Shown here piece after piece: positions 5,256-44,300 of a stretch of 49,299 nucleotides of DNA (position 1 is its first letter; each line of letters opens with the position of its first letter). Source of the DNA: Smithella sp. Its GTDB lineage: Bacteria > Desulfobacterota > Syntrophia > Syntrophales > Smithellaceae. Below the pieces are notes generated by a model. It saw only the letters and a program-made list of their open reading frames with translations. It did no database searches and was not told where the DNA came from. Location of the stretch: positions 1-49,299 of the forward strand of contig JAAYKU010000289.1 of NCBI GenBank assembly GCA_012522275.1, given 5' to 3'. Made by a program: the position numbers and the translations under genes.

Positions 5256-6299
5256 TCAGGCGCCAATCGCTTTTTTTAAATGGTTCATGTCCAGATTTCC
5301 ACCCGACATGATTATGACTACTTTCTTGCCCGCCAGTCTTTCACGTATTTTACAGGCTGCAACCAGCGCGACTGCGCCGGCGGACTCGGCCAGGTTGTGC
5401 GTTGCCGTCAGCGCCAGCGCCACCCCCTGAAGGATCTCCTCCTCGGACAGCAAAACGACATCGTCAATGCTGTCGCGAAGAATCACATAAGGCAGATGAA
5501 ATACCGTCCGGGCCGCAAGGCCGTCGGCCAGAGTATCGGCCTCGTCAAGGGTAATGATTTCCTTTTTCTTCCAGGACTCATAAAAGGAAGGCGCGTTTTG
5601 GGGCTCCACGCCGATGATTTCCACAGATGGCTTGATGGCGCGCACAGTTTTTAAAATCGACGCGCAGCCCGCGCCGCCGCCGATCGGGCAGATAATCGTG
5701 TCCACCTCCGGCAGGTCTTCCATAATTTCCATTCCCAGGGTGGCAATACCATTAAGAATTTCCGGCTCGTTGCCCTGCTCGACATAGTAATAGCCGGCAC
5801 TGTCCACCAACTCATCGCAGTAGGACTGTGCATCATAGAAATCCGCGCCGCGGATAATCAACTCCGCCCCATAGTTTTCAATTATACGGTTGATTTCCGG
5901 GTTGTTGTTTTCCGGAACAACCACCGTGCAGGGCACCTGAAACCATTGTCCGGCCCAGGCCATGGCCAGACCGTGGTTACCTCGTGTGGCCACCAGAATA
6001 CCGGCCTCCAGCTCTTCCCTCGATATGTGATGGTAAAAATTAAGCGCCCCCCTGATCTTGAAAGATCCTGTCGGGTTGTGATTTTCGTGCTTGACGAAAG
6101 CCTCGCAGCCGATCAGGCGGGAAAGCTCGGAATAGAAGATGAGGTTGGTCCGGTTGAGGTATTTCCTGATGATGGACCTGGCCATAAAAGCGCGGGCCAG
6201 GTTAACCTGTTCGCTTGCCGCCTCATATTTTTTCAGCATAAGCCTGCCCTCCAGTTTTTGCCGTTTAGTCTTTTTTACCACCTTTTTAACGGCTGTCAA
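5256..6299 (-). CDS. PLP-dependent threonine/serine dehydratase, short form without ACT domain
   Basis: ENHNPTGSFKIRGA PLP-lysine motif, GGGAGCAS, SGGN; 347 aa; alternative Met start near 6239. Confidence 0.88.
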   Translation of the reverse strand: MTAVKKVVKKTKRQKLEGRLMLKKYEAASEQVNLARAFMARSIIRKYLNRTNLIFYSELSRLIGCEAFVKHENHNPTGSFKIRGALNFYHHISREELEAGILVATRGNHGLAMAWAGQWFQVPCTVVVPENNNPEINRIIENYGAELIIRGADFYDAQSYCDELVDSAGYYYVEQGNEPEILNGIATLGMEIMEDLPEVDTIICPIGGGAGCASILKTVRAIKPSVEIIGVEPQNAPSFYESWKKKEIITLDEADTLADGLAARTVFHLPYVILRDSIDDVVLLSEEEILQGVALALTATHNLAESAGAVALVAACKIRERLAGKKVVIIMSGGNLDMNHLKKAIGA

Positions 6300-41352: not shown

Positions 41353-42330
41353 TTACGACCGGCCTTCTTTTTCCGGCGGGTTGTCTGCAGGCTGCCTGCA
41401 ATCCTGGTGAGGGCTTCGGCCTGCCAGGCACAGAAGCTGCCCGTCATTACAACTGTTGCATTCAAATTGCAAGGTCGGATGGTCGACATTGAACCTGCCG
41501 GCCAGCATCGCGCGGACTCGGTCCGCCAGTTCATCGACCCGGCCGAGCATCTGATCGGGAACGGTGATATGTACAGCCAGCGCGATACTGTCGGATGATA
41601 GCTTCCAGACATGCAGGTCGTGAATTTTTGTAATACCGTCCAGGCCTTCCAGGGCATCGCGGATTTCTTCGAGGTTCATACCGGAGGGTGTCGCGTTCAT
41701 CAGAATCAGGAAGCTTTCCCTGATGAGCCCCCAGCCGCCGTAAACAATCATGGCCACGATGAGCCATGAAAACACAGGGTCGAGCCAGTACCAGGGTTTG
41801 AACATCCAGATGATGCCCAGCGTCACGACCCCGAGGGAGGTTGCCGCGTCGGCCAGCATATGTAAAAACGCGCTTTTCATGTTCAGGTTCACCTTCGCGC
41901 CCGCGCGCAAAAGCCCGGCGGAAAACATGTTGCCGGCAAAGCCCAGAAGAGCAATCCAGATCACGAGCCGGCCGCTGATCGGCCGGGGCGTGAAGATCCT
42001 GTGCCAGGCCTCGGCTGCGATATAAAAAGCCGCTCCGTACAGAAGAGCCACGCTGATCAGCGTGGCGAATATTTCTACGCGTTTGAAGCCGAAAGTATGT
42101 CTCAGTGTCGGCTGGCGCCTGCCGATAATGAGCGCCGCATAGTTGATAATAAGTGAAACAAAGTCGCTTAAATTGTGCACGGCGTCGCTGATGAGCGCCA
42201 TACTGCCTGACACAATGCCTCCGGCGATCTGCACCACGGGTATCAGAAAATTGATCACTATCGAAACCAGCAGGCGTCGGCCCCACGATTTTTCCTGGTC
42301 ATGCCTGTGGCTGTGCGTATCAGTCATCAT
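41353..42330 (-). CDS. Cation diffusion facilitator family transporter
   Basis: SGSMALISDAVHNLSDFVSLI, ADAATSLGVV, six-TM pattern, cytoplasmic domain ITKIHDLHVWKLSSDSIALAVHI. Confidence 0.93.
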   Translation of the reverse strand: MMTDTHSHRHDQEKSWGRRLLVSIVINFLIPVVQIAGGIVSGSMALISDAVHNLSDFVSLIINYAALIIGRRQPTLRHTFGFKRVEIFATLISVALLYGAAFYIAAEAWHRIFTPRPISGRLVIWIALLGFAGNMFSAGLLRAGAKVNLNMKSAFLHMLADAATSLGVVTLGIIWMFKPWYWLDPVFSWLIVAMIVYGGWGLIRESFLILMNATPSGMNLEEIRDALEGLDGITKIHDLHVWKLSSDSIALAVHITVPDQMLGRVDELADRVRAMLAGRFNVDHPTLQFECNSCNDGQLLCLAGRSPHQDCRQPADNPPEKEGRS

Positions 42331-42429
42331 ACGTAAATAGTAGCGCATCTTCCGTGAGAGGTCAATTGTGCCTTTGTTTCGGCAAGAACCTGCTTTCGCG
42401 CCACCGTCCCGAGATGATACTGTTTTTTG

Positions 42430-42458
42430 TTGACAAAAGTCTTTCGAGAAATTAGAAT
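42430..42458 (+). promoter_or_regulatory. Sigma-70-type promoter for the cimA leader
   Basis: TTGACA (42430-42435) - 17 nt - TAGAAT (42453-42458). Confidence 0.8.
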
Positions 42459-42491
42459 AGGAAAAATTAGCTCTCAGAGATCGTGGTGAAT

Positions 42492-42563
42492 ATGCTTATC
42501 AGCACCGGAATCATTATGAACATCATTATAATTAGCTTCCGCACAGGAGGCCCGGCCGTGTAG
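42492..42563 (+). CDS. Putative isoleucine-rich leader peptide, 23 aa
   Basis: ATG...TAG encodes MLISTGIIMNIIIISFRTGGPAV with 7 Ile codons, located between a promoter and an intrinsic terminator. Confidence 0.75.
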   Translation: MLISTGIIMNIIIISFRTGGPAV

Positions 42564-42592
42564 TAGGCATACTTTAGACATACTAAATTCCG

Positions 42593-42629
42593 AACCGCCG
42601 CCGGCCGCAAAACCGGCGGCGGTTTTTTT
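42593..42629 (+). terminator. Attenuator-type intrinsic terminator upstream of cimA
   Basis: AACCGCCGCCGG-ccgcaaaa-CCGGCGGCGGTT followed by TTTTT, perfect 12-bp stem. Confidence 0.85.
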
Positions 42630-42722
42630 ATGCGGACAACAGCGAGCCGAAAAGCCCGGGGTTCCGGCGGCCGCCGACGGAAAAAAGCACATGCAGATAA
42701 TACTGCCTGAAGGAGACAGGTT

Positions 42723-44300
42723 ATGACCAAAAAAAATATTTTAATTTACGACACGACGCTGCGCGACGGCACGCAAGGCGAGCAGATCACTTTTTCCGCG
42801 GAGGAAAAGCTGCGCATCGCCCACAGGCTCGACGATATCCATTTCCATTACATCGAGGGGGGCTGGCCCGGCTCCAATCCCAAGGATGCGCGTTTTTTCG
42901 AGCTGGCCAGGCAGGCGGAGTTTAAACATGCCCGACTGACCGCTTTCGGTGCTACACGTAAACCAAACATCCTGCCCGGGGCATGCCCCAATCTCAAGGC
43001 GCTGGTCAAGGCCGGCACACCGGCGGTAGCCATTTTCGGCAAGTCCTGGGATCTGCATGTCACAGACATCCTCAAAACAGATCTGGAGGAAAATCTGTCG
43101 ATGATCCGCGATTCTATCGCTTATCTGAAAGATCTGGGCAAAGAGGTTCTCTTCGACGCGGAGCATTTTTTTGACGGATACAAGCAAAACCCGCGCTACG
43201 CGGTACGCGTCGTCAGGGCTGCGCTGGAGGCGGGTGCGGACAAAATTATCTTTTGTGACACAAACGGTGGTACCATGACACATGAGCTCACCGATATCGT
43301 CAAAAAAATGCTCCGTATTGTTGATCCGGCCATCTCAGGCATCCATCTGCACAATGACTGCGGCCTGGCGCTGGCCAACTCCATCGCGGCGGTGCGCGAA
43401 GGGGTCCGGATGGTGCAGGGGACTGTCAACGGCTACGGTGAGAGGTGCGGCAACACCGATCTGATTTCGCTTGTCGGCAATTTGCAGATAAAGATGAAAA
43501 TGCAGTGCCTGCCTGCCGAATCCATCCGGCAGTTGACAAATCTGTCGCTGTATGTGAGCGACGTGGCCAATATACCCCCTCTTACCTCGCGGCCCTTCGT
43601 CGGGCGCAGCGCATTTGCACACAAAGGAGGGGTTCATGTCAGCGCCGTGACGAAAAACTCCCTGGCCTATGAGCATATGGACCCTGAGCTGGTCGGTAAC
43701 AGCCGCCGCGTGCTTGTTTCTGACATGGCCGGAAAAAGCAATATCGAATACAAGGCCCGGGCGCTGGGGATCGACCTGAAAAAGAAAAATGCCCTCAATA
43801 AAGTCGTGCAACAAGTCAAGTATATGGAGGACAGAGGCTATCAGTTTGATGCGGCCGACGGCTCCCTTTCCGTTTTGATGAAAAAGACCATCGGCGAGTT
43901 TATAGAGCCATTCACGCTGGAGTGCTTCAGTGTCGTTACCTCCCGCATGCTGGACAATCCCGCCATGTCCCAGGCCACTATAAAAATATCCGTAGGAGGA
44001 GAGGAGGAGCTCACCGCCGCCGAAGGCAACGGCCCGGTCAATGCGCTCGACCACGCGCTGCGCAAGGCGCTGACAAAATTCTATCCCCAGATCCGCGACA
44101 TGCACCTGGTGGATTTCAAGGTGCGCACACTGGAGGGCTCTGAAGGCACGGCGGCCGGCGTGCGGGTTTTGCTCGATTCTACGGACGGCTCCGAAATCTG
44201 GAGCACGACGGGCGTGTCCGAAAATATTATCGAGGCCAGTTGGCAGGCCCTGATAGACAGTATCGAGTACAAGCTCAGCAAGGATAAGAAAAAGAAATAG
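42723..44300 (+). CDS. cimA: (R)-citramalate synthase, LeuA/NifV-like family
   Basis: IYDTTLRDGTQGEQITFS, HLHNDCGLALANSIAAVREG, QGTVNGYGERCGN, AHKGGVHVSAV; C-terminal regulatory domain. Confidence 0.92.
   Translation: MTKKNILIYDTTLRDGTQGEQITFSAEEKLRIAHRLDDIHFHYIEGGWPGSNPKDARFFELARQAEFKHARLTAFGATRKPNILPGACPNLKALVKAGTPAVAIFGKSWDLHVTDILKTDLEENLSMIRDSIAYLKDLGKEVLFDAEHFFDGYKQNPRYAVRVVRAALEAGADKIIFCDTNGGTMTHELTDIVKKMLRIVDPAISGIHLHNDCGLALANSIAAVREGVRMVQGTVNGYGERCGNTDLISLVGNLQIKMKMQCLPAESIRQLTNLSLYVSDVANIPPLTSRPFVGRSAFAHKGGVHVSAVTKNSLAYEHMDPELVGNSRRVLVSDMAGKSNIEYKARALGIDLKKKNALNKVVQQVKYMEDRGYQFDAADGSLSVLMKKTIGEFIEPFTLECFSVVTSRMLDNPAMSQATIKISVGGEEELTAAEGNGPVNALDHALRKALTKFYPQIRDMHLVDFKVRTLEGSEGTAAGVRVLLDSTDGSEIWSTTGVSENIIEASWQALIDSIEYKLSKDKKKK

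Follow-up and report, generated by a model that had tools for sequence, protein, structure and literature searches.

A predicted isoleucine-responsive transcription attenuator upstream of the citramalate synthase gene in Smithella and its relatives

The DNA preceding cimA, the citramalate synthase gene, in a 49,299-nt stretch of a Smithella sp. genome (hereafter the window) very probably encodes a ribosome-mediated transcription attenuator that ties expression of this gene to charged tRNA-Ile. An Ile-codon attenuator of cimA had been proposed in an earlier note on this DNA, and the proposal is now supported, at the level of comparative sequence analysis, by a conserved Ile-run open reading frame (ORF), a terminator and a covarying antiterminator. 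The parts, their conservation, an Ile-specific coding constraint and covarying, mutually exclusive helices were established computationally.

In the classical scheme of attenuation, a short ORF with many codons for the regulatory amino acid is combined with exclusive 2:3 and 3:4 helices and a U-tract terminator, and the stop codon lets a ribosome completing the ORF mask segment 2. Here, transcription would start past the promoter at 42430-42458 and a ribosome would translate the leader. With ample Ile-tRNA, this ribosome would reach the stop codon at 42561 and cover segment 2 (42551-42561), leaving segment 3 to pair with segment 4, and transcription would end near 42625. With scarce Ile-tRNA, the ribosome would stall at the Ile codons (42510-42533) and segment 2, left free, would pair with segment 3 once it is made; no terminator would form and RNA polymerase would enter cimA. 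Leader translation, stalling on uncharged tRNA-Ile, termination and readthrough themselves are steps that we infer.

Results

Genomic context of cimA

The cimA gene (42723-44300, plus strand), the presumed regulated gene, encodes a 525-amino-acid protein recognized as citramalate synthase by the TIGR00977 equivalog model (712 bits for a cut-off of 450). A gene for a CDF-family metal transporter (41353-42348, minus strand) diverges from it. On its 3′ side lie the genes of a threonylcarbamoyladenylate synthase (44435) and then of an RNase E/G (45154), and the leader should therefore serve cimA first.

Elsewhere in the window (5256-6299, minus strand), a threonine/serine dehydratase-like protein is encoded that consists of the catalytic domain only, the regulatory domain being absent, and that scores below the family cut-offs; it could possibly supply 2-oxobutyrate from threonine, in parallel with the citramalate route. 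Unlike in relatives, neither ilvD nor a biosynthetic ilvB was detected in this assembly (G000), which hinted at a different role for CimA. This idea was rejected, as 36 of the 40 genomes searched have ilvD, among them 17 of 19 further members of the genus; the absence of both genes from an assembly that is about 95% complete most likely reflects missing contigs.

Promoter and leader peptide

Re-reading of the sequence confirmed the sigma-70-type promoter described earlier (42430-42458, plus strand), made of TTGACA at 42430, a 17-nt spacer and TAGAAT ending at 42458, with 11 of 12 consensus matches. At the family level, TTGACA-17-TANNNT precedes cimA in 31 of the 32 loci whose upstream sequence is long enough, and the remaining one has a 16-nt spacer.

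The leader peptide ORF, MLISTGIIMNIIIISFRTGGPAV (42492-42563, plus strand), runs from the ATG at 42492 to a TAG at 42561-42563, directly followed by a second TAG at 42564. Its reported 23 codons and 7 Ile were found again, the latter at codons 3, 7, 8, 11, 12, 13 and 14. The control region (42510-42533, plus strand) reads ATC ATT (ATG AAC) ATC ATT ATA ATT and has homologous codons in 33 leaders of the family, of which the window is a GC-rich, slightly divergent member whose leader is without the last Glu codon. We agree with the earlier judgment that the leader ribosome-binding site is weak, which counts against an attenuator.

Shuffles of the region and windows along the 49 kb served as the null for Ile-rich ORFs. 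Among 5000 dinucleotide-shuffled versions of the region, one reached six Ile within 8 codons of a short ORF, and the RNA from 42465 to 42640 has a folding z score of -4.15. Both tests are suggestive only; it is conservation that decides on function.

Conservation and coding signature of the leader

A CimA match was found in 58 of the 59 searched genomes, that of the window included, some of these matches being only distant family members. The upstream DNA of the best matches formed the compared set of 50 loci (L082-L131), drawn from the Smithella genome itself, its family and its order. The arrangement seen in the window, with an Ile-rich short ORF and then a terminator before cimA, recurs in 48 of the 50 loci, and the terminator is found in 50/50 of the own-family and own-order cimA loci. 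The two exceptions, L116 and L127, both members of the order, have fewer Ile codons but retain the RNA part. Aligning the leaders, a check suggested in the earlier note, revealed an Ile-run ORF and a terminator conserved in close and distant relatives, together with an antiterminator helix that covaries; a lack of such an ORF or terminator in close relatives was what the note had named as refuting the proposal. Extra DNA lies between the terminator and cimA in L085, L101, L103, L105 and L110, and is partly palindromic in L085 and L103.

In an alignment of the 33 family leaders anchored at the stop codon, five columns encode Ile with at most one exception per column: their first two bases are invariant, the third is a mixture of ATA, ATC and ATT, and a single ATG is the only amino-acid change. 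After the Ile run, third bases are nearly fixed (TTC, CCC, GGA, GGC, CTG, GTG) while amino acids vary. Judged by these substitutions, the Ile stretch is constrained as codons and the stretch located 3′ of it as RNA.

Terminator, antiterminator and early hairpin

The predicted intrinsic terminator (42592-42630, plus strand) comprises a hairpin at 42592-42625, with a 13-bp stem, an 8-nt loop and a stability of -26.7 kcal/mol, followed by a T-tract. It had been described previously with a 12-bp stem, which is extended here by one pair, and is located 28 nt past the leader stop and 97 nt ahead of cimA.

As attenuation requires, the shared middle strand (segment 3) must fit both of its partners. 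Segment 2 is CCTGGCCGTGG in leaders of the family type, where its partner in the terminator arm is CCGCTGCCAGG; the other families of the order have CCTGATAATGG or CCTGATAGTGG instead, with CCGTTATCAGG as the partner arm. Pairing of the antiterminator helix amounts to 89.4% over 49 sequences, and both sides have changed in 37 cells, compared with 12 in shuffles; these counts overstate the number of events since related sequences are non-independent. Its covariation score is 0.267 versus 0.181, a value of 0.267 being reached by 0 of 500 shuffles, and all slides score lower. The terminator helix is likewise conserved with covariation. Moreover, the 3′ regions of the leaders pair best with their own type of arm (-19.4 kcal/mol for the GCCAGG type versus -12.5 and -10.8 kcal/mol), and when a leader is matched with an arm of another main type, about 4-9 kcal/mol of duplex stability is lost.

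In the window, segment 2 (42551-42561, plus strand), the 5′ strand of the antiterminator and the homologue of CCTGGCCGTGG, overlaps the last codons of the leader, and segment 3 (GAACCGCCGCCGGCCG; 42592-42607, plus strand) serves as both the 5′ arm of the terminator and the 3′ strand of the antiterminator. The sequences found at the two segments are CCCGGCCGTG and ACCGCCGCCGGCCG, respectively. The CGGCCG/CGGCCG match proposed earlier as the antiterminator does exist; its 6 bp are nevertheless the off-register part of a longer helix of about 11 positions, formed by 42551-42561 with 42595-42605, of which 8 are paired in the window. Two registers are nearly equal there, one of them being this shifted CGGCCG register. 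The 2:3 helix of the window itself is assigned by homology, because its own pairing is not better than that of shuffles of its GC-rich sequence (p = 0.37).

A CGGAA/TTCCG pairing that brackets the Ile codons, also proposed in the earlier note, is present as written but is not conserved in relatives. The conserved early hairpin is P1 (GCUUCC-GCACA-GGAGGC; 42535-42551, plus strand), which lies between the Ile codons and segment 2 and pairs 42535-42540 with 42546-42551. Of 54 order-level leaders, 40 have a P1 stronger than in shuffles (p<=0.1), and 42531-42552 of the window folds at -9.4 kcal/mol. It keeps its position and its stem while its sequence differs between lineages, for example in L114, L117 and L127. 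A search for a protector 1:2 helix competing with 2:3 placed P1 mostly beside segment 2 and not across it. P1 could possibly act as an RNA polymerase pause hairpin.

Folding in the presence of a ribosome

The RNA was folded with an assumed ribosome footprint masked, either as made up to segment 3 or at full length. With the A-site Ile codon at 42498-42522 and the RNA made to segment 3, both P1 and the 2:3 helix form (-24.5 to -26.4 kcal/mol); with stalls at 42525-42531, 2:3 still forms (-17.4 to -20.0 kcal/mol). A ribosome on the stop codon leaves segment 3 essentially unpaired (-2.4 kcal/mol) and prevents 2:3. Folding under stalled and non-stalled conditions, another check suggested earlier, thus indicates that stalls on Ile codons permit 2:3 before segment 4 is made and that a ribosome at the stop blocks it. 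Under this assumed footprint, the geometry fits the claim that a stall would free segment 2 and a ribosome at the stop codon would mask it. In 60 of 62 cases where the leader stop is in frame, its distance to the first position of the segment 2 core is 9-15 nt.

For the full-length RNA with a stalled ribosome, the terminator is favored at equilibrium (-34.3 kcal/mol versus -24.8 kcal/mol with the antiterminator forced), and with segment 4 present, the terminator has the lower energy in all the cases folded. Antitermination must therefore win kinetically.

Distribution in the phylum

Two covariance models were used, R1 being the first model of the element and R2 a second one trained on all types. 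In the Smithella genome, the cimA site alone scores with R1 (89.7 bits, the next hit having 19.3); no further copy of the element rises above noise in this search. Across 395 genomes of the phylum, R1 also found elements in other orders, and R2 placed them in 51 of the 395 at E<=1e-4. Strong matches have leaders rich in Ile, Leu and Val (ILV) and lie before cimA, ilvD, ilvB and leuA, as identified by NCBIfam. In the ilvD type, the core is often GGTTGATAATGG and the arm CCGTTATCAGCC, a double compensatory change with respect to the cimA type. Outside the order, hits weaker than about 40 bits often turned out to be common terminators lacking an ILV-rich ORF; such weak hits were not counted.

The cimA loci of other phyla, used as a negative control, reached about 20 bits at most, versus 49-120 bits for the cimA elements of the order. 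An Ile-rich short ORF of the same density was found in 1 of 72 of these loci, L034 from Acidobacteriota (2841-2962), directly 5′ of cimA and with a weak model score; it is possibly an independent case. In L158 (1526-2766, plus strand), an attenuator of the kind described here, again with a leader rich in ILV, stands before a gene that is not biosynthetic and encodes an acyl-CoA dehydrogenase, for which the closest NCBIfam model, below its cut-off, is acryloyl-CoA reductase.

A broader reading describes a phylum-level family whose core, UGAUAAUGG:CCGUUAUCA, is reused before cimA, ilvB, ilvD and leuA and doubles as a two-codon mini-ORF, (A/G)UG-NNN-stop, on which a ribosome would park. Reinitiation from the overlapping leader stop (UGAUAAUG) would often reach this mini-ORF, and a ribosome parked on segment 2 would hold the terminator state, a step that the classical model of attenuation does not have. 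Where the main ORF ends in another frame, the stop two codons past the start-codon position is kept in 15 of 24 elements, and the U of the core (A/G)UG forms a U.G wobble instead of a C-G pair in 48 of 59 rows. Elements combining a kept (A/G)TG-NNN-stop with an off-frame ILV-rich leader are those of L009, L114, L125, L126, L150, L159, L160, L165, L184, L187, L200 and L206. We regard this broader reading as unlikely; the (A/G)UG-NNN-stop over the core is, all the same, the part of the element most likely to hide something new.

Amino-acid specificity of the leaders

At the order level, cimA leaders contain 31% Ile, 5% Leu and 5% Val, while Leu is abundant in those from outside the order, alongside Ile and Val. 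Both leuA leaders are rich in Leu and Val. Judging from its sequence, the ilvB operon of the Smithella family carries a second type of attenuator, different from that of cimA, with a Val/Leu-rich peptide (e.g., LVLTVVVVLMGSAASYL) and its own terminator. Such leaders stand 5′ of ilvB in L224, L225, L226, L227 and L228, and a GC-rich terminator of their own (GCCGCGGGCCCC...GCCCGCGGC) comes after them. Because ilvB has this separate leader, the cimA leader of the family appears to report Ile alone.

Two further arrangements were observed. In L230, a member of the order, one ilvB gene follows an Ile-run leader and a second ilvB gene a Val-run leader, so that these paralogues are apparently under different amino acids. 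In the cimA leaders of L005, L155, L173 and L177, a hairpin of the GCAACAGGG...CCCTGTTGC type lies between Ile codons and Leu/Val codons and perhaps splits two sensing regions.

These compositions bear on the possibility that a constitutive terminator or attenuator, with a translated leader acting by coupling or upon a different signal, only adjusts the basal level of cimA, with no response to amino acids. The dominance of the terminator at equilibrium is in its favor, but it does not account for a codon constraint specific to Ile, for covariation in the 2:3 helix or for the match between leader composition and downstream pathway (Ile for cimA, Leu/Val for ilvB and leuA), and we consider it improbable, well behind an Ile-responsive attenuator.

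Still less credible is an Ile T-box or another tRNA- or ligand-binding riboswitch, in which the leader RNA would itself sense tRNA-Ile or isoleucine and the ORF would be incidental. A terminator and an alternative helix do precede an amino acid gene, as such a riboswitch would have them. However, the only Rfam matches of the window are tRNA genes at other positions, and a search of 18 related loci yielded, even with the threshold relaxed to E<=1, nothing but weak hits to unrelated sRNA models. The T-box covariance model (RF00230) matched neither the window nor these 18 loci, and in the same sequences the Leu (RF00512), Thr (RF00506), His (RF00514) and Trp (RF00513) leader models gave no match at gathering score. 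Besides, an aptamer does not explain why variation in the Ile codons is confined to synonymous third positions, and the RNA from promoter to terminator is short and largely coding.

Equally hard to credit is a real Ile-rich membrane peptide whose transcript ends at the terminator, cimA having another promoter: the ORF is conserved and small hydrophobic peptides exist, but non-Ile residues drift at bases 1-2 while downstream third bases stay fixed, the reading frame of the C-terminus differs between lineages, and the residues past the Ile run track RNA pairing and not peptide sequence.

Discussion

The predicted Ile-responsive attenuator of cimA shares its leader ORF, alternative 2:3 and 3:4 helices and U-tract terminator with the gamma-proteobacterial attenuators of ilvGMEDA, ilvBN, leuABCD, thrABC, his, trp and pheA. 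It differs from them by its target, citramalate synthase, by a leader rich in Ile alone, by its host, from a Thermodesulfobacteriota-type lineage, by an antiterminator/terminator core whose sequence is conserved across operons and families, and by P1, which adjoins segment 2 without necessarily competing with 2:3.

The amino acid leader families of Rfam are those of His, Trp, Thr and Leu only, seemingly of gamma-proteobacterial origin; isoleucine/valine and phenylalanine attenuators are known without being in Rfam (PMC3766115). Branched-chain leader peptides likewise control termination before ilv genes in Corynebacterium (ilvBNC; PMC11857589, PMC10272879) and, with a Leu-rich peptide, in Staphylococcus (PMC5794164). 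These belong to other phyla and to ilv operons, with no cimA, a distinction drawn from their descriptions and not from sequence. Isoleucine T-box leaders also place branched-chain genes under the control of tRNA charging, but bind the tRNA directly, without translation. In the freely accessible literature, we found no description of a leader-peptide attenuator of cimA or of delta-proteobacterial attenuators, and PMC2965389 and PMC545781 make no mention of branched-chain attenuators in the delta-proteobacterial group. The mechanism is thus a known one, of which the cimA element, as predicted here, is a further case without an Rfam family.

Leader-peptide attenuation would extend, with this element, to a large anaerobic group for which the searched literature gave no description of it. 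The citramalate route commits carbon to isoleucine without threonine. In the Smithella lineage, cimA is seemingly gated by isoleucyl-tRNA alone and ilvB by valine and leucine; such separate gating would handle the shared enzymes of the branched-chain amino acids through separate leaders. The composition of a leader could also help to tell which product a LeuA/CimA-family enzyme serves. The covariance model can annotate the branched-chain operons of this group, and amino-acid sensing in syntrophs that are hard to culture becomes predictable from sequence.
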